Shown one piece after another: positions 19,056 through 32,371 of a stretch of DNA of 64,000 nt. Location: assembly GCA_022448315.1 (NCBI GenBank), contig JAKVCA010000024.1, forward strand, positions 1 to 64,000, read 5' to 3'. Source of the DNA: Pirellulaceae bacterium (GTDB taxonomy: Bacteria > Planctomycetota > Planctomycetia > Pirellulales > Pirellulaceae). Positions within the stretch are counted from its first letter, which is position 1. Each line of letters opens with the position of its first letter. Position numbers and translations under genes: made by a program. The notes under the pieces were generated by a model that ran no database searches, had not been told where the DNA came from, and saw only the letters and a program-made list of their open reading frames with translations.

Positions 19056-19958
19056 ATGCCCCCCAGGATCTCAGCCTTTCCCAAATGCTACCTCGAGGAA
19101 ATTTCTTCGCACGACGGCATGTCCGTATTCGACTGGATCGAGCAGGCCCGTGAACTGGATGCCGATGGCCTTGAGATGTACGAAGGCTTTTTCACGAGCC
19201 TCGACAATGACTACCTTGATTCCGTAAAAGAGGCCATTCATCAGGCGGGCTTTGTCATGCCCATGCTCTGCTGTTCGCCAGATTTCACGCATCCCGACCG
19301 AGACCAACGACAACGGGCGGTAGACCGTGAAATCCAGATGATCGAAGTCACTCATCGTCTTGGAGGAAGGGGTTCCGTATGCCGTGTCTTGAGTGGACAG
19401 AGATACCCCGAAGTCACGCGTGATCAGGGCATGCAATGGGTCGTGGAATGCATTGAAAATTGTCTTCCTGCAGCCCGCGAACATGGCATCATTCTCGGAT
19501 TGGAGAACCACTACAAAGACGGATTCTGGAAGTACCCCGAATTCGCGCAAAAACAGGACGTTTTTCTCGAGTTGTTGGCGTCAGTCCCCGAACATCGCCA
19601 CTTCGGTGTGCAGTATGACCCTTCAAATGCCATCGTGGCCGGCGATGACCCCGTGGAATTGCTACGGCAGGTGGCCGACCGCGTGGTGAGCATGCATGCG
19701 AGTGATCGCTACCTCGCGCCGGGAGCCACGCTTGAAGCGTTACGACAAAGCGATGGAACCCTCGGTTATTCGTCTCAACTTCTTCACGGCATCACGGGTC
19801 AGGGTCTCAACGATTATGATGCGATTTTCGAAATCCTTGCATCACAAAATTACGGTGGCTGGATCAGTATCGAAGATGGCATGAACGGTCTGGACGAAAT
19901 GATGGAGTCGCTCGCTTTTCTGCGGTCGATGGTCCGGAAATATTTCCCTTCTCCTTAA
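19056..19958 (+). CDS. Sugar phosphate isomerase/epimerase (AP-endonuclease-2 TIM barrel)
   Basis: A 300-residue protein of the xylose-isomerase-like TIM-barrel family (PF01261). Putative metal ligands in order are the Glu in IILGLENHYKDG, the Asp/Asn pair in VQYDPSN, the His in RVVSMHASD and the Glu in GWISIEDGMNG. Homologues isomerise or epimerise small sugars, inositols or keto acids; the substrate cannot be read here. No signal peptide. It is 14 bases upstream of the Gfo/Idh oxidoreductase gene, a frequent pairing in sugar and inositol catabolism. Confidence 0.9.
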   Translation: MPPRISAFPKCYLEEISSHDGMSVFDWIEQARELDADGLEMYEGFFTSLDNDYLDSVKEAIHQAGFVMPMLCCSPDFTHPDRDQRQRAVDREIQMIEVTHRLGGRGSVCRVLSGQRYPEVTRDQGMQWVVECIENCLPAAREHGIILGLENHYKDGFWKYPEFAQKQDVFLELLASVPEHRHFGVQYDPSNAIVAGDDPVELLRQVADRVVSMHASDRYLAPGATLEALRQSDGTLGYSSQLLHGITGQGLNDYDAIFEILASQNYGGWISIEDGMNGLDEMMESLAFLRSMVRKYFPSP

Positions 19959-19972
19959 GACCAGAGGCTGTC

Positions 19973-21052
19973 ATGCTCACCCTCAGAACTGGTCTCGTCG
20001 GTTGCGGCAAAGTCGGGCAGACCCATGCACTTGCGTTGGGTCGCCTGCCGGAGTCGGAGTTCGTTGCTGTTTGCGACTCGGCGGCGAGCCGTGCAGACGC
20101 CTTCGGAAAACAGCACGCCGTTCAAAGCTTCACCGATGTCGAAGAGATGCTTCGGGAGTGCAATCTTCAAGCTTTGATGATCTGCACGCCACACCCCGAA
20201 CATGAGTCCGCCTGCGTGACTGCCGCGAAATTCGGCGTCCATGTGTTGATTGAGAAACCCATGGCCGCCACCCTCGATTCCTGCGATCGCATGCTGGAAG
20301 CAGCGGATCGTTTCGGCACTCAGATCGGAGTTGTCAGTCAACGGCGTCTGTTTGAACCCATTCAGCGAATGAAACACGCCATTGATCAGGGAAAAATTGG
20401 CAGTCCCATCTTGGGGACTTTCAGCATGTTCAGTTACCGAGACAAGGCGTACTACGAATCGGATTCATGGAGAGGGCAATGGGCGAGCGAAGGCGGAGGT
20501 GTGCTCGTCAACCAGTCACCCCACATGCTCGACATATTGCAGTGGTTGATGGGCGAAGTCGATGAGGTTCACGGTTACTGGGCAAACTTCACCCACCCTT
20601 ACATCGAAGTTGAGGATACGAGTGTTGCCACTGTTCGCTTCAAATCAGGTGGCCTCGGCAACATCGTCACCAGTTTGTGTCAGAAGCCGGGCATTGATAC
20701 GAAAATTCATGTCCACGGGTCTAACGGTGGTTCCATCGGCGTCCAGACCGATACAGGAGCAACCTTTGTGGCGGGGATGAGCGGAATTGAACATCCCCCA
20801 TTCACCGACCTATGGACGATTCCTGGGGAACAAGATCGACTCGCGGAGTTCCAGCAGCAAGATCGTGACGTTTTCAATCAGGTCGACGCAACAACCCATT
20901 ACCATTGCCTGCAAATCAAGGATTTCCTTCAAGCCATCCTCACCGGTCAAACGCCGATGGTCACCGGCAACGCCGGTCGGAGGGTCGTCGCCATGTTTAC
21001 CGCGATCTACCAGTCTCAGAAGCTTGGTCAACCGATTCGCTTTCCCCTTTGA
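19973..21052 (+). CDS. Gfo/Idh/MocA family oxidoreductase
   Basis: A 359-residue NAD(P)-dependent dehydrogenase. The Rossmann motif is GLVGCGKVGQTHALALG, and the catalytic EKP is in VLIEKPMAATLDSC. The C-terminal alpha/beta domain carries GGVLVNQSPHMLDILQWLMG, whose His-x-x-D is typical of the active site. The enzyme oxidises or reduces a sugar or cyclitol. It is 14 bases downstream of the TIM-barrel isomerase and is probably translated from the same message. No signal peptide, so cytoplasmic, unlike some twin-arginine planctomycete members. Confidence 0.94.
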   Translation: MLTLRTGLVGCGKVGQTHALALGRLPESEFVAVCDSAASRADAFGKQHAVQSFTDVEEMLRECNLQALMICTPHPEHESACVTAAKFGVHVLIEKPMAATLDSCDRMLEAADRFGTQIGVVSQRRLFEPIQRMKHAIDQGKIGSPILGTFSMFSYRDKAYYESDSWRGQWASEGGGVLVNQSPHMLDILQWLMGEVDEVHGYWANFTHPYIEVEDTSVATVRFKSGGLGNIVTSLCQKPGIDTKIHVHGSNGGSIGVQTDTGATFVAGMSGIEHPPFTDLWTIPGEQDRLAEFQQQDRDVFNQVDATTHYHCLQIKDFLQAILTGQTPMVTGNAGRRVVAMFTAIYQSQKLGQPIRFPL

Positions 21053-23122: not shown

Positions 23123-24580
23123 CTACGTCGCCAAGCTGACCAAGGCAATCAGGAATCCGAGGACCACGCAGAACAACGCGAAGATCCCGAGCCAAAATCC
23201 CATTCCCAACTTTTTGGATGGACGACGATGAGTGATCCGTTGACTTAGACTCGTCGAATCATCCTCGGGCAGATTCACGTCGATCAAATCCACCGCCTCC
23301 GGAGGCGGTGTTGCGTCTCCCACTTCGACCGTCGGTAGAAAGACCAACTCGTGGTCCTCGGCTCGATCTTCCCCCGGTTCTGCGTCCAAGGGTTCCTGAG
23401 CTTCATCCAGACTTCTCGCCAGCGCTTGTGCCTCGTCACCCAACACGGCGGATCCGGATTCCTCTTCAGACGCCGTCACTCCCGTTTCAGTCTCCTCCGA
23501 GGTGCCGCGTACCGCAATGGTCGCATACATGCTTCCCGTCACCGTCTCACCCTGGGACGCTAGCCAGCGACTCAGCACCTCAAAAATTTCCTGACAATCT
23601 TCGTACCGGCTCGACGCCTTTTTCCTCATCATCCGATTGCAGATATCCCTGATTTCTTCCGGGCAATCCGCCCGTCGTCTAATGACGTCCGCGGGACGGC
23701 GACTTTGATGCATCGCGATCCGCTGGGCCAGCGAACCCACGGGAAAAGGGGGATGTCCAGTCAACATAAAGTAGAGCGTACAGCCGAGGCTATAAATGTC
23801 TGTTTTCAGATCCACGTTGTGGCTATCGAGCGCCTGCTCTGGCGACAGGTAATCGGCCGTGCCTATCACCTTTTCATCGTATAACTGGGTGATCGAAGTG
23901 CCTTGCTCGCGGGACATCGCCAAGCCAAGGTCAAGGAGTTTCGCCTCACCACCTTCCTCCACAAGGATGTTACCCGGTTTGATATCTCGATGGATAATTC
24001 CCTGGTCGTGAGCATACTTTAACGCCCGCGCCACTTGCGCCGTGTACCGAACGATATCCACAATTTCAATCGGGCCTCGCTCCCGAACGAGCTGACTGAG
24101 ACTCTCCCCCTCAATCAACTCCATCACGATGAAGTAGGTATCATTGTCCTGTCCGATACCATACGCCTTCACAATATTGGGATGATTGAGCCTCGCGGTC
24201 GCTTTGGCCTCCAGACGAAACCTTTCCAGATAGGAACGTTTTCCGACCCGTTTTCGTGGCAAGACCTTCACGGCTCGCTTTTGCCCAGCGGTGACATGCT
24301 CGGCCAGGTAAACGGTGCTCATCCCGCCGGTCCCGAGATGGCCGAGCAACTTGTAGTCCCCGAGGAAGAAGCCTCGGCATCGACCTGACTTCAGTTTCTG
24401 AAACTGCCACTCGGTAAGGAGCCCCTCCGCAACCAAAACTTCGCGCACCTGATCAGGATCGGACAACGGGTTTTTTTGATCTTCACGAACTTTACTGAGC
24501 AATGCACGAAGTTCCTCCGTGGGAACCAACCCGCTTTGCTGCAATCCTTCAATGAATTTCTTGATCCCGACTTTGCCCAT
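23123..24580 (-). CDS. Hanks-type serine/threonine protein kinase with C-terminal membrane anchor
   Basis: A 485-residue kinase. Residues 1-72 form the helical extension typical of planctomycete kinases (AEGLLTEWQFQKLKSGRCRG). The kinase domain, about 73-340, has the glycine loop GTGGMSTVY, the Lys in RAVKVLPRK, HRDIKPGNIL with the catalytic Asp, the metal-binding Asp in LLDLGLAM, the activation-segment end GTADYLSPEQ and DIYSLGCTLY. An acidic, proline-containing linker (about 355-450) leads to one transmembrane helix (GFWLGIFALFCVVLGFLIALV) at the C-terminus. No extracellular sensor follows the helix, so input probably comes from the linker or N-terminus. Targets are unknown. Confidence 0.95.
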   Translation of the reverse strand: MGKVGIKKFIEGLQQSGLVPTEELRALLSKVREDQKNPLSDPDQVREVLVAEGLLTEWQFQKLKSGRCRGFFLGDYKLLGHLGTGGMSTVYLAEHVTAGQKRAVKVLPRKRVGKRSYLERFRLEAKATARLNHPNIVKAYGIGQDNDTYFIVMELIEGESLSQLVRERGPIEIVDIVRYTAQVARALKYAHDQGIIHRDIKPGNILVEEGGEAKLLDLGLAMSREQGTSITQLYDEKVIGTADYLSPEQALDSHNVDLKTDIYSLGCTLYFMLTGHPPFPVGSLAQRIAMHQSRRPADVIRRRADCPEEIRDICNRMMRKKASSRYEDCQEIFEVLSRWLASQGETVTGSMYATIAVRGTSEETETGVTASEEESGSAVLGDEAQALARSLDEAQEPLDAEPGEDRAEDHELVFLPTVEVGDATPPPEAVDLIDVNLPEDDSTSLSQRITHRRPSKKLGMGFWLGIFALFCVVLGFLIALVSLAT

Positions 24581-24925: not shown

Positions 24926-25660
24926 ATGAAAACCCTTGGAGTCTTCGCCAAATATTGGGAACCCGGCAAGGTCAAAACGCGACTTGGCCGTGAAATCGGC
25001 GCCGAGAATGCGGCTCGCGTCTACCTCGGTTTCCTGTCCACTCTGATCCAGCGTTTCTCCGAGACCGGGGACCGGCGAACCGTTGTCGCATCACCACCCT
25101 CCCACCGGCTTGAGTTTGAGAACCTCGTCGAAAGGGTCATCGGTCGCCCACAGCACAAATGGGATTTTGCAAACCAGATGGGAGATGACCTCGGAGCACG
25201 ACTCCTGAATCACACCGAAGCGGCATTCAGCCAGGGTGCATCCCAACTCGTTTTGCTCGGAACCGACAGCCCTGATTTACCAAGAGACTATCTGAATCAG
25301 GCGTGGCAGGCGTTGGAGACCCACGACGTCGTCTTGGGTCCTGCTGACGATGGAGGCTATTACCTGATTGGAACCCATCAGTCCCAGCCTGGCCTGTTTG
25401 AGAACATCCCGTGGAGCTCCCCAGAGACCTTGACGGCAACCCTTGAGGCCGCTCATCGAAATGCGCTTTCGGTGGCTCAATTGCCCCCTTGGTATGATGT
25501 CGACGATGGATTATCGTTGCGACGTCTGTTTGAGGGACTCACCGAACGCGTCCAACGGTTGCCCAAAGACATTGCTGAACGACACCCTTTCGTCGAACTT
25601 CAAAGACTCATCGCGTTATGCCTAGCCCCTCCCACCAACACGTCGACGTCGCCATCGTAG
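24926..25660 (+). CDS. DUF2064 / TIGR04282-type glycosyltransferase-like protein
   Basis: A 244-residue nucleotide-diphospho-sugar transferase-fold protein. Hallmarks: VFAKYWEPGKVKTRLG near the N-terminus, LVLLGTDSPDLP with the metal-binding Asp, and VLGPADDGGYYLIG. The family is named for members found beside arsenosugar genes, but most members are of unknown substrate. ATG at 24926 is taken; upstream codons have no similarity. It overlaps the ThiO-like gene by 43 bases (25618-25660), suggesting translational coupling, and heads a four-gene plus-strand cluster. Confidence 0.82.
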   Translation: MKTLGVFAKYWEPGKVKTRLGREIGAENAARVYLGFLSTLIQRFSETGDRRTVVASPPSHRLEFENLVERVIGRPQHKWDFANQMGDDLGARLLNHTEAAFSQGASQLVLLGTDSPDLPRDYLNQAWQALETHDVVLGPADDGGYYLIGTHQSQPGLFENIPWSSPETLTATLEAAHRNALSVAQLPPWYDVDDGLSLRRLFEGLTERVQRLPKDIAERHPFVELQRLIALCLAPPTNTSTSPS

Positions 25661-26772
25661 GCGGTGGTGTAATCGGATTGAGCATCGCGTGGGAACTCGC
25701 TCAACGCAACTTGTGCGTTTCGGTTCTGGATCAGGGGCCGATGGGAAAAGCTGCCTCATGGGCAGGGGCCGGAATTCTGCCGCCTCCCCCTGGGGCAAGA
25801 GCCGACCATCCACTGGACGCATTGGCCCGACGCTCCAGAGAATTGCACCCGATGTGGGCCCGGCGACTGATCGAACTTACCGGAATCGACAATGGATACC
25901 ACGTTTGTGGTGGTCTCTATCTAGCTCAGACGCCCGGTGAAATGGCCTCGTTGATCGCAAACAGGGCCAACTGGAAAGATGAAGGACTGCAAGTCCAGGA
26001 ATGGTCCAAGGAACAGATCATTGCGAAGGAGCCCCATTTAGTTTCAGCCGTCGAAGCGGGACGTGTCAAAAAGGCCTTTTGGATGGCAGAGGAGGCTCAA
26101 CTTCGTAATCCTCACCATCTCCAAGCGTTAGAGGCCGCTTGTCAATGTTCCAACGTTCAGCTGCGCCCCCACGCTCCCGTCACCCATTTGGAACGAAGCG
26201 GCAGACAATGGTCACTGCGTACCGACCAGGACCACCTTTCGGCAGACAAGGTTTGTCTCGCCGCGGGCGCGTGGACCGCACTGCTTACAAAATCCGTTGG
26301 CTTCGAACCCGCCGTCGTTCCCGTTCGTGGACAGATGAGGCTCTACAGGACTGATTCTTCGATCCTTTCCTCCATCCTGAACGAGGGGCCCCGATACCTC
26401 GTCCCTCGTAAAGATGGCTTGATCCTGGCGGGATCCACCGAAGAAGACGCGGGCTTTAATAACTTCACCACATCAGAGGGTTTACAGAGCTTACAAGCGT
26501 TCTCAGAAAAATGGCTTCCTTCACTCACTCCAGAACGCTGTATCCGGAGTTGGGCAGGACTACGCCCGGGGACCGTGGACGGGTTTCCCTACATGGGCCC
26601 CGTGCCGGAGCGAGAGGGGCTTTTTGTGGCGGCAGGGCACTTTCGTAATGGCCTTTACTTGTCAACGGGGTCCGCCGAACTGATGGCCGACCTGATCACC
26701 AACCAGATCCCGAGAATTCAAGTCACACCCTTCCAGATTCAGCGAGGGCTCCACCTTGATCCCGAATCATGA
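25618..26772 (+). CDS. ThiO/DadA-type FAD-dependent amine oxidase
   Basis: A 384-residue flavoprotein of the DAO family (PF01266). The FAD motif is VAIVGGGVIGLSIAWELAQR, with the ribose-binding segment and QGPMGKAASWAGAGILPPP typical of ThiO-like glycine oxidases. The C-terminus has WAGLRPGTVDGFPYMGPVP and AAGHFRNGLYLSTG. In thiamine synthesis ThiO makes the imine of glycine; no other thi gene is present here, so the assignment to thiamine is uncertain and another small amine could be the substrate. Start ATG lies inside the end of the previous gene. Confidence 0.85.
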   Translation: MPSPSHQHVDVAIVGGGVIGLSIAWELAQRNLCVSVLDQGPMGKAASWAGAGILPPPPGARADHPLDALARRSRELHPMWARRLIELTGIDNGYHVCGGLYLAQTPGEMASLIANRANWKDEGLQVQEWSKEQIIAKEPHLVSAVEAGRVKKAFWMAEEAQLRNPHHLQALEAACQCSNVQLRPHAPVTHLERSGRQWSLRTDQDHLSADKVCLAAGAWTALLTKSVGFEPAVVPVRGQMRLYRTDSSILSSILNEGPRYLVPRKDGLILAGSTEEDAGFNNFTTSEGLQSLQAFSEKWLPSLTPERCIRSWAGLRPGTVDGFPYMGPVPEREGLFVAAGHFRNGLYLSTGSAELMADLITNQIPRIQVTPFQIQRGLHLDPES

Positions 26773-27024
26773 ACAACAAGCCGCCGCGTTCCGCCTCCAG
26801 AAGCGTCTAACACATTGACGTTGCCACACGATTTGGAACAAAATCTTGGACGTTGATGTTTTCGATCGGCCTTAAAATCAAGATTTATCTCAAACCAAAA
26901 TCCGCCACGTCCAAACACCAATTCATGCGGCGCCGTCCGGTTGCGTAACACAAACAGGTTTCGAAAGCCTGACTCGACCCCGATCTAATACTCCAACCTC
27001 CTATCGGCCTCAGGAAGGACCTCG

Positions 27025-28305
27025 ATGGCGATCGACACTCCAGCTACAATTGCGATCCTCGGCGCTGGTCCTATCGGACTGGAAGCGGCTATCTATGCTC
27101 GTTTTCTGGGATATGAAGTCACCGTGTATGAAAAGGGTCGCGTCGCTGATCACGTCCGACAATGGGGACATGTCACACTCTTTACCCCCTTTCATATGAA
27201 CTCCTCGTCACTCGGGCGATCGGCCATTGAAACACAGGCCCCTGACGCGCCGCTCCCCAAGAGCGATGCCCACCTCACCGGTCAGCAATGGGTCGAAGAG
27301 TACCTGACACGATTAACACAAGTCGACCTGCTCCGCGGGAATATTCGTGAAGCCACCGAAGTTCTGGCTGTTGGGAAAGAAGGATTCTTGAAGTCGGAAC
27401 TTGTTAGCCACGAGGAACGGTTCGAAGAGTTGCAACTGGTTCTGGCCCGCAATGCGGCTGGAGAGGAGCAATGGCAACAGTTTGATATCGTCATCGATAC
27501 GACGGGCACTTTCGGTGTTCCTAACCACCTGGGACCAGGTGGTCTACCGGCCGCTGGAGAATCCTCTTTGAACCGGGATCAACTCTGGGCTCATCAATCG
27601 CCGCCGCTTTCATTCAGACTGCCAAACATTGAATCGGAGCATCGAGATTTCTTCGCAGGGAAACACACGCTCGTACTCGGCACGGGTTACTCGGCTGCGA
27701 CGAATCTCAGCGAGCTTTTGAAGCTACAATCCAAAGAAGGTTCGACGACAATCACTTGGGCAGTTCGGCACTCCGAGGCGACCGAAAGGGACCTTATTGC
27801 AAGATTTCCAGACGATGCCCTGCCCCGTCGAGACCTGCTGGCCAGCGAGGTCAATCACGCAGCCACCGATGGACGTATCCAAGTCCTATTCAACGCGCAA
27901 ATCAAAGGTTTGGCCCCGATGCAAAATGGGCGATGGGATGTCCAGTTTTATGACGAGGCCATCGAGGCATTGCAAGTGGATGCCATTCTTGCGAACGTGG
28001 GATTTCAGGGGGACTGGAAAATCACCGAAGAGACCCAGCTTCACCGTTGTTACGCCTCGGGCGGCCCAATGAAATGGTCGGCGACCTTGGTCAATTCTTC
28101 GACGGCCGACTGCCTCAGCAAAACCAGCCAGTCCTCGGAAAACCTGATCACCACCGAACCCAACTTCTACGTCTTGGGATCCAAGAGCCATGGTCGATGG
28201 TCAAACTTCCTTTTCCAGAACGGCCTGGAGCAAATTCGAATGCTGTTCAGTGTCATTGCCGACCGAACAAATCTGAACCTGTATCAGACCCCTCTGTCAT
28301 CCTGA
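27025..28305 (+). CDS. FMO-like FAD/NAD(P)-binding oxidoreductase
   Basis: A 426-residue two-dinucleotide-domain flavoprotein. The FAD motif is AILGAGPIGLEAAIYARFLG, and the second Rossmann motif, for NAD(P)H, is TLVLGTGYSAATNLSELL near residue 218. A conserved DTTGTFGVPNHLG lies between. It resembles flavin monooxygenase/thioredoxin reductase-like enzymes but lacks a CxxC, so it is more likely an oxygenase or dehydrogenase. The start has AGGAAGG 6 bases upstream. It is 252 bases after the ThiO-like gene and 6 bases before the radical SAM gene, so the last two are certainly cotranscribed. Substrate unknown. Confidence 0.8.
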   Translation: MAIDTPATIAILGAGPIGLEAAIYARFLGYEVTVYEKGRVADHVRQWGHVTLFTPFHMNSSSLGRSAIETQAPDAPLPKSDAHLTGQQWVEEYLTRLTQVDLLRGNIREATEVLAVGKEGFLKSELVSHEERFEELQLVLARNAAGEEQWQQFDIVIDTTGTFGVPNHLGPGGLPAAGESSLNRDQLWAHQSPPLSFRLPNIESEHRDFFAGKHTLVLGTGYSAATNLSELLKLQSKEGSTTITWAVRHSEATERDLIARFPDDALPRRDLLASEVNHAATDGRIQVLFNAQIKGLAPMQNGRWDVQFYDEAIEALQVDAILANVGFQGDWKITEETQLHRCYASGGPMKWSATLVNSSTADCLSKTSQSSENLITTEPNFYVLGSKSHGRWSNFLFQNGLEQIRMLFSVIADRTNLNLYQTPLSS

Positions 28306-28311
28306 ATCGCC

Positions 28312-29241
28312 ATGAATCATGAGAACCCGACTCGAACAGAAACGCCATCCATCGAGATGCGCGACCTCGATGCATTGTGGTTTCAGATCACAGGGACACG
28401 TTGCAACCTGACTTGCAGTCACTGTTTCATCAGTTGCAGCCCTCACAATGATCAATTTGGATTCCTGCCACTTTCGACGGTCCAGCATTGGTTGCAAGAG
28501 TCGCGGAAATGGGGCGTTCGCGAGTACTACTACACGGGCGGCGAGCCTTTCCTGCACCCGGACATGACGAGGATTCTGAAGGAGACTCTGGAAATTGGCC
28601 CCGCAACCGTGCTCACCAACGGGACCGTACTGAAAGAGTCGTGGCTCCACGATCTGAAACTCGCCTCACTAGGAACTTACTCTCTCGAGTTTCGAGTCTC
28701 ACTCGATGGTTTTTCTCCCGAAACGAACGACCCGATTCGTGGTCCCCGAAGTTTTGAACGAACGATGACTGGAATCATGAAACTTGTCGCGTTCGGCTTC
28801 CTCCCCATCATCACGGCCGCGCGTGTCTGGGATGACGAGGAGGAATCGAACGTCATCGACGCGTTTGTCGAGATGCTTCGCCAACGGGGTTACCAGCGTC
28901 CACGATTGAAGTTGCTTCCGAAGCTCAAACTAGGCGCCGAGGTCCAAAGGACCCACGGTTATCGAGAGGACGAGTTGGTCACCGCGGCCATGATGAAGGA
29001 CGCCGACCCTTCCACCTTCTTGTGCAGTCATTCGAGAATCGTGACAGACCGGGGCATCCATGTCTGCCCGCTTCTAATCGATGAGCCAGACAGCCTCATG
29101 GGTCAGACAATGGAGGAGGCGGCGAAGCCGTTTGAGTTAAAACACGGGGCTTGCTGGACCTGCTACCAGCATGGCGCGATCTGCTCCAACGCACCCAGCT
29201 ATAAAATCCAGCCGCCCGTCTCCTCTCAATCGCAGGTCTGA
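28312..29241 (+). CDS. Radical SAM enzyme with C-terminal cysteine cluster
   Basis: A 309-residue radical SAM protein (PF04055). The cluster motif is CNLTCSHC at about residue 28, followed by the unusual FISCSPHND. Further radical SAM features are YYYTGGEPFLHPD and VLTNGTV. The C-terminal 70 residues hold five Cys (FLCSH, VCPLL, ACWTC, AICSN), consistent with an auxiliary iron-sulfur cluster of the SPASM/twitch type. The organisation suits modification of a peptide, sugar or small molecule. It is the last gene of the four-gene cluster; the next gene faces it with a 7-base gap. Confidence 0.85.
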   Translation: MNHENPTRTETPSIEMRDLDALWFQITGTRCNLTCSHCFISCSPHNDQFGFLPLSTVQHWLQESRKWGVREYYYTGGEPFLHPDMTRILKETLEIGPATVLTNGTVLKESWLHDLKLASLGTYSLEFRVSLDGFSPETNDPIRGPRSFERTMTGIMKLVAFGFLPIITAARVWDDEEESNVIDAFVEMLRQRGYQRPRLKLLPKLKLGAEVQRTHGYREDELVTAAMMKDADPSTFLCSHSRIVTDRGIHVCPLLIDEPDSLMGQTMEEAAKPFELKHGACWTCYQHGAICSNAPSYKIQPPVSSQSQV

Positions 29242-29248
29242 AAACGGA

Positions 29249-29557
29249 TCAGGCCTCGACGTCCGAATCAAACACGCGGACCTTCGCCCACGAGGCTTTG
29301 TTTCGCTCAATGAAAGTCAGGTGCCGTGGGTCCGTCTGATAGATGTCGTGGGCCTCACGACTTTCGAACACCACGTGCAGCGCGACGTGAAAGTCTCGGT
29401 CGTTGACGGGACGATCAAGATCAGGATTGCACGGACCGGCCGCGAAAAAAACGGTACCAGGATGACCTGAAAGGTACTCCCGACACTCGGCTGCCAGCGC
29501 GTTTATATTGTCTGTAGTCGGCTCTGCCAACGTGAAATAGACATCGTGAGAAAGCAT
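29249..29557 (-). CDS. Dabb-domain (stress-responsive A/B barrel) protein
   Basis: A 102-residue single Dabb domain (PF07876): HDVYFTLAEPTTDNINALAAEC at the start and DFHVALHVVFESREAHDIYQTDPRHLTFI in the middle, the typical ferredoxin-like strand-helix pattern. Three start codons occur in a row (GTG 29563, ATG 29560, ATG 29557); GAAAGG lies 6 bases before 29557, so that is preferred. Known Dabb proteins include a few enzymes but most have no known role. It converges with the radical SAM gene. Confidence 0.85.
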   Translation of the reverse strand: MLSHDVYFTLAEPTTDNINALAAECREYLSGHPGTVFFAAGPCNPDLDRPVNDRDFHVALHVVFESREAHDIYQTDPRHLTFIERNKASWAKVRVFDSDVEA

Positions 29558-29591
29558 CATCACCCTTTCGGCAAGTCAGATATTGAACGTT

Positions 29592-29733: not shown

Positions 29734-30966
29734 TTACGGTTCCACTGAAAATCTGTGGACCGTCTTCTGCGAATAGGTCTCACCCGGCTTCAGGATCGTT
29801 GTCGGAAACTTCTCCTGATTGGGCGAATCGGGGTAATGCTGTGTTTCAAGACAGAACGCGTTGTACTGTGGGAATCCACCACTCCCCGGCGTCCCATCCA
29901 GAAAATTGCCGCTGTAGAACTGAATGCCCGGTTGGGTCGTTGTAATCTCCATCACTCGCCCAGAAGCCGGATCCCGCACCACGGCGGCCGTCACCATTCC
30001 ATCGGCTTCGCCACGATCAATCACGTAGCAGTGATCGTATCCGATGGGGTCACCGCCCGCCTGCTCGATTCGCTCACCGATTTTGTGAAAGTCCACAAAA
30101 TCGAACGGCGTGTTCTCGACCTCCAGCAGATCACCGGTGGGGATCAAGCTGTCATTGACCGCGAGGTAGAATGAGGAATTCAATTTCAGTTCCTGATCAT
30201 GAATCGTTCCTGAGCCGGCACCGGCCAGATTCCAATAGTTATGGTTGGTCAAGTTCACTGGCGTTGCCTTGTCTGTGGTCGCCTCGAACTCAATGGACAA
30301 TTCATCCTTGTTGTTCAACATGTAAGTCGCTTTGACGGACAACTCTCCCGGGTAGCCTTCTTCGCCATCAGCACTCGTATAAGTAAAAACCACACCGACG
30401 CCCTCATCGGTCTCAACGGCCTCACCATTCCAGATCACTTTGTCAAAACCTTTGAGTCCACCGTGAAGGTGATTTTCCCCATTATTCTTAGCCAGCGTGT
30501 AAGACTCTCCTTCGAGCTCAAACTGCCCATTCGCGATTCGATTGCAATAACGACCCACCGTCGCGCCGAAATAGGATCCGCACGCCTCCCAGCCTGCGAT
30601 GTCCGGACAACTCAACGTCACATTGGCCAATTTTCCATCGCGATCGGGGCAATCAAAACTGGTCATGATCGCGCCATAGGTGATCAGGTTCATCCTGAGG
30701 CCGTTGGCGTTGGTGCAGGAAAATTGAGTTACCGCTTGCCCGTCAGCCGTTTTTCCGTAACCGGATTCTGAAACACTCATACCCTCAGCCACCTCTTCAT
30801 CGTTATCCACTGTCTCTGTCTCTTCCATGGAATTTTCTGGAGCAGCATCAGCCGTGCCGCTACCCTCTGCAGGCGTCTCAGGCTCCGGAGATTGGCACCC
30901 GGACAATAGCGAGGAAAGGGCGGCGATGACGCATAAGCAAGTCCACGTCGACGTATTTCGAAGCAT
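29734..30966 (-). CDS. Aldose 1-epimerase (galactose mutarotase) lipoprotein
   Basis: A 410-residue GalM-family enzyme that interconverts alpha and beta anomers of free sugars. The mature domain (from about residue 65) has NHLHGG, NHNYWNLAG with the catalytic His, and the late Glu in CLETQHYPDSPN. An N-terminal lipoprotein signal (CVIAALSSLLSGC) shows that this enzyme is exported and membrane-anchored, unlike the usual cytoplasmic GalM; an acidic linker (PEPETPAEGSGTADAAPE) follows. ATG at 30966 has GGAG about 9 bases upstream. The frame continues to 31095 without added signal. Confidence 0.93.
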   Translation of the reverse strand: MLRNTSTWTCLCVIAALSSLLSGCQSPEPETPAEGSGTADAAPENSMEETETVDNDEEVAEGMSVSESGYGKTADGQAVTQFSCTNANGLRMNLITYGAIMTSFDCPDRDGKLANVTLSCPDIAGWEACGSYFGATVGRYCNRIANGQFELEGESYTLAKNNGENHLHGGLKGFDKVIWNGEAVETDEGVGVVFTYTSADGEEGYPGELSVKATYMLNNKDELSIEFEATTDKATPVNLTNHNYWNLAGAGSGTIHDQELKLNSSFYLAVNDSLIPTGDLLEVENTPFDFVDFHKIGERIEQAGGDPIGYDHCYVIDRGEADGMVTAAVVRDPASGRVMEITTTQPGIQFYSGNFLDGTPGSGGFPQYNAFCLETQHYPDSPNQEKFPTTILKPGETYSQKTVHRFSVEP

Positions 30967-31459
30967 CAACTCGACTCCAATTTTACGGGGAAAACGGAAA
31001 CCTGCCATGCAGGTCATAATGCGGATGCGACGGGTTGACCCGTTGGCTCCTGAATCAATCACGCCGCCAGAAAGTTGTGCAATTTGGCACCGCATTATGA
31101 GGCCCGATCGAGGCCGCGTCCAGACGCCGCCGCAACCTAGCGTTCCTGAACCCCATGGAATCTAATTGAAACTCTCAACTGGCCGGACAAAACGACCGAG
31201 GCGTGTCGTTGGTCGACCTGCTGGAAGCCCCCCAACGAGACCAGAACTCGATCCGATAGGCATGCGACCGTCCTGACAGATAACGGACCCGCATGTCGTT
31301 GGCCAGTGGACTCGTCGTGAAGAATGGTCCGAACGAACACTGGCTGAACGGAAACAAGATCGTCGACGTTACCATCGACAGCGAGGTGCAACGTGCCAGC
31401 GCATCAAGACGTTCGCTGGGTCTCCTGCACCTCGGGACAGACTCACCAGAACCGGCGGT
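30967..31459. other. Region between mutarotase and isomerase genes, with a pseudogene relic
   Basis: This stretch contains the mutarotase leader and, from 31170, decayed DUF1080-like sequence on the plus strand. The two minus-strand frames at 31137-31391 and 31175-31375 show no domain. Confidence 0.5.
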
Positions 31460-31463
31460 TTAG
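31170..31463 (+). pseudogene. Decayed DUF1080-domain gene fragment
   Basis: One plus-strand frame runs through this region but is broken by in-frame TAG at 31257 and TAA at 31281. The last piece reads LVVKNGPNEHWLNGNKIVDV and continues TIDSE; this matches by eye the DUF1080 stretch with consensus EHWLNG.K.V. The final LLHLGTDSPEPAV resembles the family's C-terminal LQ-x-HG segment. No intact start is seen. The 3' end overlaps the isomerase stop by four bases. Either a relic or chance similarity; the conserved EHWLNG argues for a relic. Confidence 0.42.
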
Positions 31464-32212
31464 AAAAGTTGACTCTCCAGCAGGAGTCGCATTTTCCGCA
31501 TCTCGCTACTGAAATCAACGCCTTCGACCGGTTCGATCGCGGTGATCAGGGCGTGATCGTAATTCACATTTTCCAGCTGGTTGATCAACCTGCCGTAATC
31601 CACCTCACCCTGACCAATCTGGACGTTGAGCTGTTCCTTCTTGGAGTCGCGAAGACGAACCTGATAGACATATTTCATGAGGTGAGAAAAGCTGCGGTTG
31701 GAATAGGGACCACAAATGTAGTGACTCGGATCCAGACATAGCCCAAGACCATCCACATGATCGCACATCACCTGTACTGTGTCCGGATCCTCAGTGAGAC
31801 TGCCGATCTGACTCATCATCCCGACTCGGACGCCATGCAATTTTGAAATCTTCGTCAACCGCTTCAGATGTTCGACTTCTTCGTTGAATGGCGTGCCCAA
31901 CTCACTGGAGGGAACGCTGATGGTGACCACTTTGGTTGCTTTAGCCAATTTGCAACAGGCTTCGAACTGTTGGTAGTGCTCTTCACCCTCCGCCCGGATA
32001 TCGACATTGTAGCCAATCACGTTCAGACGATTCGTTGATTGACATCGCAACAAAGCGGCTTGAAGATCCCCCAGAACCTGCGAAGGCTTGAGTTGCACGC
32101 CCATTTCGTGAATTGAAATCTCGACAGCCGTGTACTCCAGATCAACGAGCCTGCTAAGCGCGTCCTCAAAACTCAGATCTTTGAAGCAATCGGTTGAAGC
32201 TGCGACATCCAC
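31460..32212 (-). CDS. Sugar phosphate isomerase/epimerase (TIM barrel)
   Basis: A 250-residue xylose-isomerase-like TIM-barrel protein (PF01261), only distantly similar to the other isomerase at 19056. Visible features are the N-terminal strand VAASTDCF, Glu in YTAVEISIHE, an Asp-x-x-His in LCLDPSHYICGP, and a final Glu in ALITAIEPVEGVDF. GTG at 32212 is preferred, with AGGAG 9 bases upstream; TTG at 32230 is the alternative. Substrate unknown. It sits with mutarotase and glmM on the same strand, suggesting a sugar role. Confidence 0.85.
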   Translation of the reverse strand: MDVAASTDCFKDLSFEDALSRLVDLEYTAVEISIHEMGVQLKPSQVLGDLQAALLRCQSTNRLNVIGYNVDIRAEGEEHYQQFEACCKLAKATKVVTISVPSSELGTPFNEEVEHLKRLTKISKLHGVRVGMMSQIGSLTEDPDTVQVMCDHVDGLGLCLDPSHYICGPYSNRSFSHLMKYVYQVRLRDSKKEQLNVQIGQGEVDYGRLINQLENVNYDHALITAIEPVEGVDFSSEMRKMRLLLESQLF

Positions 32213-32371
32213 TGTGGCACTCTCCTGCAATGCTGAAAAACGTCCCTGTTGATAATTCGGCGGGTAGCTTAACGATCCCTTAAAAATGAGGCAACAGCAG
32301 TCTTCGCGAGCAAACGAACCCCACGCACCCTGAACACCCCGGAATCAAACAACCCAACGCCCGCAAACCGC

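Follow-up and report, generated by a model that had tools for sequence, protein, structure and literature searches.

Radical S-adenosylmethionine (SAM) enzymes form carbon-arsenic (C-As) bonds by two known reactions, adenosylation by ArsS on the route to arsenosugars and 3-amino-3-carboxypropyl transfer on the route to arsinothricin, as listed in a review (PMC12159101). ArsL, the enzyme from arsinothricin biosynthesis, moves the 3-amino-3-carboxypropyl group of SAM onto arsenic and is a radical SAM C-As bond enzyme paired with an ArsM (PMC8552651). Here we consider a four-gene cluster in a 64,000-nucleotide stretch of DNA (positions 1 to 64,000 of contig JAKVCA010000024.1, assembly GCA_022448315.1; hereafter the window) from a Pirellulaceae bacterium of the phylum Planctomycetota. 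All four open reading frames (ORFs) are present on the + strand and encode, in this order, a DUF2064 transferase, a ThiO-type glycine oxidase, a flavoprotein (FLAV) and a radical SAM enzyme from a family without a name (rSAM). Like ArsS, the arsenosugar biosynthesis radical SAM (seleno)protein (TIGR04167), rSAM carries a CxxxCxxC motif, keeps company with DUF2064/TIGR04283 and, outside the window genome, with ArsM, and in one planctomycete family stands in a comparable gene order; unlike ArsS, it lacks DUF3641, ends in a five-cysteine, putatively SPASM/twitch-like tail and is accompanied in Planctomycetia by FLAV and by a metallophosphoesterase-like protein (PPase). We propose, with a probability of about 0.72, that rSAM, FLAV and PPase form a module replacing ArsS, in which rSAM represents a new family of C-As bond-forming radical SAM enzymes with a presumed product that is considered below.

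Two samples were compared, one of 80 genomes from the same family, the window's own genome (G000) included, and one of 195 genomes from the phylum, each at least 90% complete; they overlap in at least G000, G018, G037 and G042. In six of the 22 rSAM genomes of the phylum sample, all belonging to the family here designated f32, rSAM is the N-terminal half of a 591-619-residue protein that continues into an ArsM-type methyltransferase. Every rSAM locus of f32 (6/6) is such a fusion, and all six keep the nine rSAM cysteines and the four ArsM cysteine positions. The best solved relative of the ArsM half in locus L149 is the arsenite methyltransferase 5evj (E 3e-41). The fusion in L152 is followed by a DUF2064-TIGR04283 fusion gene that exceeds the cut-off of each model (196 and 191 bits), and that in L150 by TIGR04283 alone. 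Nine other f32 genomes have ArsS, and when all nine loci were read (L248-L256), ArsM was found directly after ArsS in seven (L250-L256), with the DUF2064-TIGR04283 fusion next in three (L250, L251 and L255). Moreover, in L253, L254 and L256 ArsS is preceded by phosphate-transporter-like (PiT) and thioredoxin-like genes that also occur upstream of the L149 fusion, sharing 79-82% identity in the transporter and 64-75% in the thioredoxin, at a distance of 3.7 kb and with other ORFs between; a thioredoxin-like gene is likewise present in the fusion loci L151 and L153. Genus g143 contains one genome of each kind, G158 with rSAM and G225 with ArsS. The simplest reading of the f32 loci is that the radical SAM enzyme was swapped while parts of the locus were kept.

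The distribution of the two enzymes points the same way. With a search threshold of 1e-40, ArsS was found in 31 of the 80 same-family genomes (29 over its cut-off) and rSAM in 29, yet both occur together only in G008, against about 11 co-occurrences expected (Fisher p 2.4e-7), and G008 is a bin with 7% contamination in which DUF2064 and long ArsM are each present twice. Across the phylum sample, rSAM is present in 22 genomes, ArsS in 75 and both in none of the 195 (p 1e-5, uncorrected for ancestry). The two enzymes share their partners: DUF2064 was detected in 58 of the 59 genomes with rSAM or ArsS, being missing in G078, versus four of the 21 with neither (G033, G038, G055 and G059; p 1e-12), and a long planctomycete form of ArsM in 24/29 rSAM genomes, 25/31 ArsS genomes and 3/21 with neither. 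The long-ArsM set includes the partial matches of G038 (1.5e-37) and G072 (2.7e-46) and excludes those of G052 (8e-26) and G059 (1.7e-34, where the match falls within another fusion), whose inclusion would bring the last count to 5/21. ArsM was sought with three models at thresholds of 1e-45, 1e-20 and 1e-25; the classical model NF008823 alone proved a poor marker, the alignment of the long planctomycete ArsM being better. The long ArsM retains the cysteines of known ArsM proteins, adjoins ArsS in all four same-family ArsS loci read (L182-L185) and in G001 lies near the module, one gene separating it from PPase.

These associations were also examined against ancestry. On a tree of ThiO sequences (60 rows, of which those of G28, G65 and G78 were misframed) the rSAM label requires 10 changes, at least four of them forced by supported branches, so that rSAM and ArsS genomes are interleaved. 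The phylogeny-aware p values come from a corrected ThiO tree of 58 genomes, with the G65 row corrected and G28 and G78 left out, which is a single-gene tree and not a species tree. In 20,000 simulations of independent traits on this tree, the exclusion between rSAM and ArsS had a p value of 1e-4, and no run was as extreme as the observed association of either enzyme with DUF2064, or likewise with long ArsM.

Some ArsM-type genes have surroundings or structures of their own. In six rSAM genomes (L145, L168, L170, L172, L174 and L179), genes named by eye as XdhC-like and MobA/MocA-like lie near the long ArsM. In one ArsS genome (L183:5806-6981) the ArsM beside ArsS is split into two ORFs, with one TGA read through in the ArsM alignment; this in-frame TGA could reflect a selenoprotein, an error or decay. 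G059 harbors a 1122-residue ORF (L188:4366-7734, + strand) fusing another radical SAM domain, an ArsM-type methyltransferase and DUF5714, and since this genome has DUF2064 and neither ArsS nor the window type of rSAM, the fusion may offer yet another, third way of carrying out the same step.

The module itself is defined by conserved company. FLAV was found in 53 of the 80 same-family genomes, including all 29 that carry rSAM, and 26 of these keep the two genes side by side in the same order (exceptions G014, G057 and G077). PPase, counted as present at E < 1e-90, occurs in 29 genomes, exactly the rSAM set. In five of them (G000, G016, G039, G047 and G067) PPase and rSAM are on different contigs; their co-occurrence even where unlinked means that it is not a by-product of linkage. 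PPase is also a frequent gene after rSAM in the neighborhoods of 40 stretches and 80 titled loci, and several relatives show a longer arrangement, in which a divergent kinase gene is followed by genes for a glutaredoxin-like protein, DUF2064, ThiO, FLAV, rSAM and PPase. Over 81 loci, rSAM was counted in at least 69, FLAV in at least 62 and PPase in at least 55, lower bounds because 12 of 80 loci had no retained rSAM ORF despite a tblastn match. In L089, of Planctomycetales bacterium 10988, the three genes FLAV, rSAM and PPase stand together. Some loci have rSAM and no adjoining PPase, for example L114, of Adhaeretor mobilis HG15A2, which has FLAV and rSAM, and seven more with a different large gene in that place. 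FLAV, rSAM and PPase are thus a conserved module. The window genome's PPase lies outside the window (G000:C50:120439-121203); as read in locus L144 (8430-9272, - strand), it has no module genes alongside, its divergent neighbor being greA-like as judged by eye. The three module genes are also present in L132, a record titled Ignavibacteria (KW1-S15_2), by transfer or as a mislabelled bin.

In an alignment of 37 rows, the CxxxCxxC cysteines of rSAM (31, 35 and 38) are invariant, as are Cys 42, 238, 252, 281, 284 and 291, the last five forming the invariant pattern C-x13-C ... C-x2-C-x6-C; the tail does not match the full SPASM cysteine spacing. Among the best 25 of 51 NCBIfam families compared, rSAM exceeded no cut-off, the best match being NF049973, the Rv1681 family (105.8 bits, cut-off 380), which is not known to be linked to arsenic. 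The ArsS model TIGR04167 gave 50.7 bits over residues 15-163 only, against a cut-off of 300, and identity to a planctomycete ArsS was 22% across 138 residues. A C-terminal DUF3641 is present in the planctomycete ArsS of L182 (1.4e-55), whereas the window rSAM has the Radical_SAM domain only. Scoring below the TIGR04167 cut-off and lacking DUF3641, rSAM was ruled out as a member of ArsS, and we rate it as a probable non-orthologous replacement of that enzyme with new accessory proteins.

It might instead be argued that rSAM makes another organoarsenical, for instance by 3-amino-3-carboxypropyl transfer as in ArsL, with DUF2064 acting on that compound in a parallel, non-arsenosugar pathway. ArsL demonstrates that radical SAM enzymes are able to move other SAM fragments onto arsenic (PMC8552651). 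In the two fusions scanned, the ArsM half scored 221-241 bits with the arsinothricin-type ArsM model (cut-off 500), about the same as the 238-242 bits obtained with PRK11873 (cut-off 263), while AsSugarArsM gave 167-170 bits (cut-off 400); neither FLAV nor PPase carried a label in the displayed stretches around ArsS. Against this, rSAM stands beside partners of ArsS, DUF2064/TIGR04283 or TIGR04283, in two of the six fusion loci, and ArsL is described as having 428 residues with conserved cysteines at 194, 198 and 201 only, quite different from the cysteine layout and the 309 residues of rSAM, a distinction that is drawn from the published description of ArsL and not from its sequence. We therefore consider this alternative unlikely.

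The predicted model of rSAM (predicted local distance difference test score, pLDDT, 84.4) is closest to the solved folds of BlsE and SkfB, of which BlsE is a cytosylglucuronate decarboxylase, the other near folds being peptide maturases. These neighbors, together with the lack of ArsM and ArsS in the window genome at the thresholds used, would fit a module whose product has nothing to do with arsenic, be it a modified nucleoside, sugar or cofactor, in which case the anticorrelation with ArsS and the sharing of DUF2064 would reflect lineage or habitat. That rSAM occurs fused to ArsM and has taken the position of ArsS speaks against such a product, and the anticorrelation both holds in the phylogeny-aware test and recurs in the phylum sample, all of which makes this explanation improbable.

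The FLAV model (pLDDT 89.2) is closest in fold to the bacillithiol disulfide reductase Bdr/YpdA (7a76, Foldseek E 6.9e-21, template modelling score 0.67 by query length, 17% identity), followed by ferredoxin-NADP+ reductases (FNR) of the thioredoxin reductase (TrxR) type, 3ab1 being among the matches, and by N-oxygenases. The likeness is one of fold alone, given that the YpdA/Bdr model TIGR04018, whose cut-off is 339.9 bits, gives 34.5; none of the 23 NCBIfam families compared was matched over its cut-off. FLAV is longer than Bdr/YpdA and carries in its C-terminal part a pair of cysteines, Cys342 and Cys363, invariant in the FLAVs linked to rSAM (37/37 rows and, in a second set, 29/29). The pair was found in none of nine FLAVs from rSAM-less genomes (nine of 24 such genomes, with the region aligning poorly), where a cysteine matched at position 342 in four and at position 363 in one.

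The third member, PPase, is related in sequence to 1nnw (E 1e-16) and 3qfm (E 1e-14), metallophosphoesterases of Pyrococcus and Streptococcus pneumoniae, respectively. Active two-metal metallophosphoesterases contain the motifs D-x-H, GD, GN, H and GHxH. PPase departs from this set, having G-x-Y in place of D-x-H and Gly in place of the second His of GHxH, while all 30 rows of the alignment keep D56, N82, H146 and H182. Assuming that D-x-H belongs to metal site 1, PPase would have lost the metal-1 ligands, which 3qfm retains, and kept those of metal 2. D-x-H is also lost in 1nnw, and therefore the degeneracy of PPase is not unique.

ThiO and DUF2064 occur beyond the rSAM genomes. A ThiO match is present in 68 of the 80 genomes (51 over cut-off), 39 of which have no rSAM, and FLAV, rSAM and PPase stay together without ThiO in many loci; TIGR04282 matches occur in 62 genomes (60 over cut-off), including all 29 with rSAM. 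DUF2064 and ThiO are adjacent in 23/29 rSAM genomes and 17/31 ArsS genomes, G008 entering both counts. This old adjacency, and a ThiO score over the curated cut-off, could be read as signs of a thiamine-related cluster with ThiO as its functional center and the other genes as passengers; given that ThiO is so common without rSAM, that the module persists without it and that no ThiO label was seen near the rSAM-ArsM fusions in the parts displayed, such a cluster is very improbable. ThiO is an ordinary glycine oxidase and an old neighbor of DUF2064, probably outside the arsenic module. Among 14 control genomes, TIGR04282 and ArsS matched only in Synechococcus elongatus, and the broader Pfam DUF2064 in four.

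Returning to the proposed replacement of ArsS, a pathway can be outlined in which the module, by making the C-As bond, would convert methylated arsenite to an adenosyl-arsenical or a sugar-arsenical, and the transferases DUF2064 and TIGR04283 would act after it. The ArsM family methylates arsenite, and the formation of dimethylarsenite is known chemistry; this compound, supplied by ArsM, would be the starting point. In the second step rSAM would cleave SAM at its CxxxCxxC cluster and place a fragment of SAM, the 5'-deoxyadenosyl group or a different one, on trivalent arsenic, a step proposed because rSAM replaces ArsS and is fused to ArsM. In the third, FLAV might pass electrons from NAD(P)H to the rSAM cluster, in the manner of a TrxR-type ferredoxin reductase, or its Cys342/Cys363 pair might keep the arsenic or a thiol reduced. 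Finally, PPase and DUF2064 may trim and decorate the nucleoside or sugar part, and ThiO would be a bystander throughout. The assignment of rSAM as the C-As bond maker, its SAM fragment and the roles of FLAV, PPase and DUF2064 are what we infer from this genomic company. The sequence-only reading had suggested a small-molecule or modified-sugar route of the kind found near arsenosugar biosynthesis, a suggestion that gains support from the ArsM fusion, the replacement of ArsS and the shared DUF2064 and ArsM.

Several observations weigh against our proposal. The window genome, which is 96.95% complete, yielded no ArsM with the three models and no ArsS at the thresholds used, being the sole one of the 29 rSAM genomes without detectable ArsM; the remark made from the window alone that neither gene lies nearby thus extends to the whole genome, and the source of the substrate there is consequently unproven. 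Its lack of ArsM could stem from a stretch that is missing, from an ArsM that has diverged, from methylated arsenic being taken up or from decay of the pathway. ArsM-type matches of any kind occur in 28/29 rSAM genomes and 31/31 ArsS genomes, and also in 11/21 with neither, so that ArsM alone is not specific; the long ArsM scores under the curated AsSugarArsM cut-off, which only two of the 80 genomes pass, and the ArsM halves of the two scanned fusions reach the cut-off of none of PRK11873, AsSugarArsM and the arsinothricin-type model. The other four of the six fusions had no DUF2064 or TIGR04283 labelled in the stretch shown, and neither FLAV nor PPase was labelled near the fusions in the stretches shown, which may mean that both belong to the planctomycetial variant only. 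When supported branches alone were used (on the tree with two misframed rows), the independent pairs were too few for significance. As for DUF2064, the accessible portions of the literature examined gave no established reaction, and TIGR04282, named 'arsenosugar biosynthesis glycosyltransferase' at NCBI, owes that label to annotation and not to a functional test.

The features of the window are collected in Table 1.

Table 1. Positions of the cluster, its motifs and the nearby sugar-handling genes in the window
Feature	Position	Strand	Evidence or remark
DUF2064/TIGR04282 CofC-like transferase	24926-25660	+	PF09837 109 bits; TIGR04282 174.6 bits, cut-off 134
ThiO, flavin adenine dinucleotide (FAD) glycine oxidase, thiamine pathway	25618-26772	+	PF01266 238.5 bits; TIGR02352 268.9 bits, cut-off 250.8
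Intergenic stretch thiO to FLAV, 252 bases	26773-27024	+	Between ThiO and FLAV ORFs
FLAV, FAD/NAD(P)H flavoprotein	27025-28305	+	Pyr_redox_3, 52 bits
FLAV Cys342; Cys363	28048-28050; 28111-28113	+	Invariant in rSAM-accompanied FLAVs
rSAM, radical SAM enzyme of unnamed family, 309 residues	28312-29241	+	PF04055, 66 bits
rSAM CxxxCxxC (Cys31, 35, 38), SAM-binding [4Fe-4S] cluster motif	28402-28425	+	Invariant in alignment
rSAM five C-terminal cysteines (238, 252, 281, 284, 291)	29023-29184	+	Invariant; putative shortened SPASM/twitch-like auxiliary cluster region
Four sugar-handling genes near the cluster	19056-19958, 19973-21052, 29734-31095, 31460-32230		

The ORFs confirm the layout described by the sequence-only reading, four head-to-tail genes with an overlap of 43 bases between DUF2064 and ThiO (25618-25660) and a spacing of 6 bases between FLAV and rSAM (28306-28311). 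Absence of conserved synteny, which it had named as refuting, was not borne out, the FLAV-rSAM order being kept across relatives to an extent that exceeds chance. Its treatment of the four genes as one set stood for the pairing of FLAV with rSAM and failed for the four-gene unit, in view of the gap after ThiO, the wide occurrence of ThiO and the identity of PPase as the true third partner; a four-gene biosynthetic operon was ruled out by that gap and by the widespread ThiO. The gap, on which the sequence-only reading was silent, also means that a single transcript is not evident, and it may house a separate promoter. A weak promoter match (9/12) lies at 26815-26844, in a scan that as a whole was near chance (three promoter-like matches versus 1.9 expected), as was that for terminators (nine terminator-like matches versus 6.3).

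Around the cluster, a Dabb (stress responsive A/B barrel) gene (29249-29563, - strand) is convergent with rSAM and ends 7 bases past its stop. A serine/threonine kinase gene, named by eye (23123-24580, - strand), is divergent from DUF2064 and is a common neighbor in relatives. In several of these a small glutaredoxin-like gene (DUF836) separates it from DUF2064, but no such gene was seen in the window. The sugar-handling genes that flank the cluster encode two xylose-isomerase-like barrels, a GFO/IDH/MocA oxidoreductase and an aldose epimerase.

No description of the rSAM family or of the module was recognized among the papers listed from the open-licence literature, subscription papers lying mostly outside that search, which does not prove that none exists. 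For the phylum as a whole, we consider it reasonably probable that Planctomycetota possess a second, structurally distinct radical SAM family for C-As bonds, that it and ArsS have repeatedly taken each other's place, both inside families and, in g143, inside a single genus, and that in Planctomycetia it is accompanied by a Bdr-like flavoprotein and a phosphoesterase devoid of metal site 1, maybe toward a different organoarsenical end product. If this is true, a natural rSAM-ArsM fusion is available for study, and orphan parts such as DUF2064, the one-metal-site phosphoesterase and the Bdr-like flavoprotein would be tied to a testable pathway. Furthermore, as the family is present in many planctomycetes, some microbial producers of arsenosugars and arsenolipids would then go unnoticed in surveys for ArsS alone.

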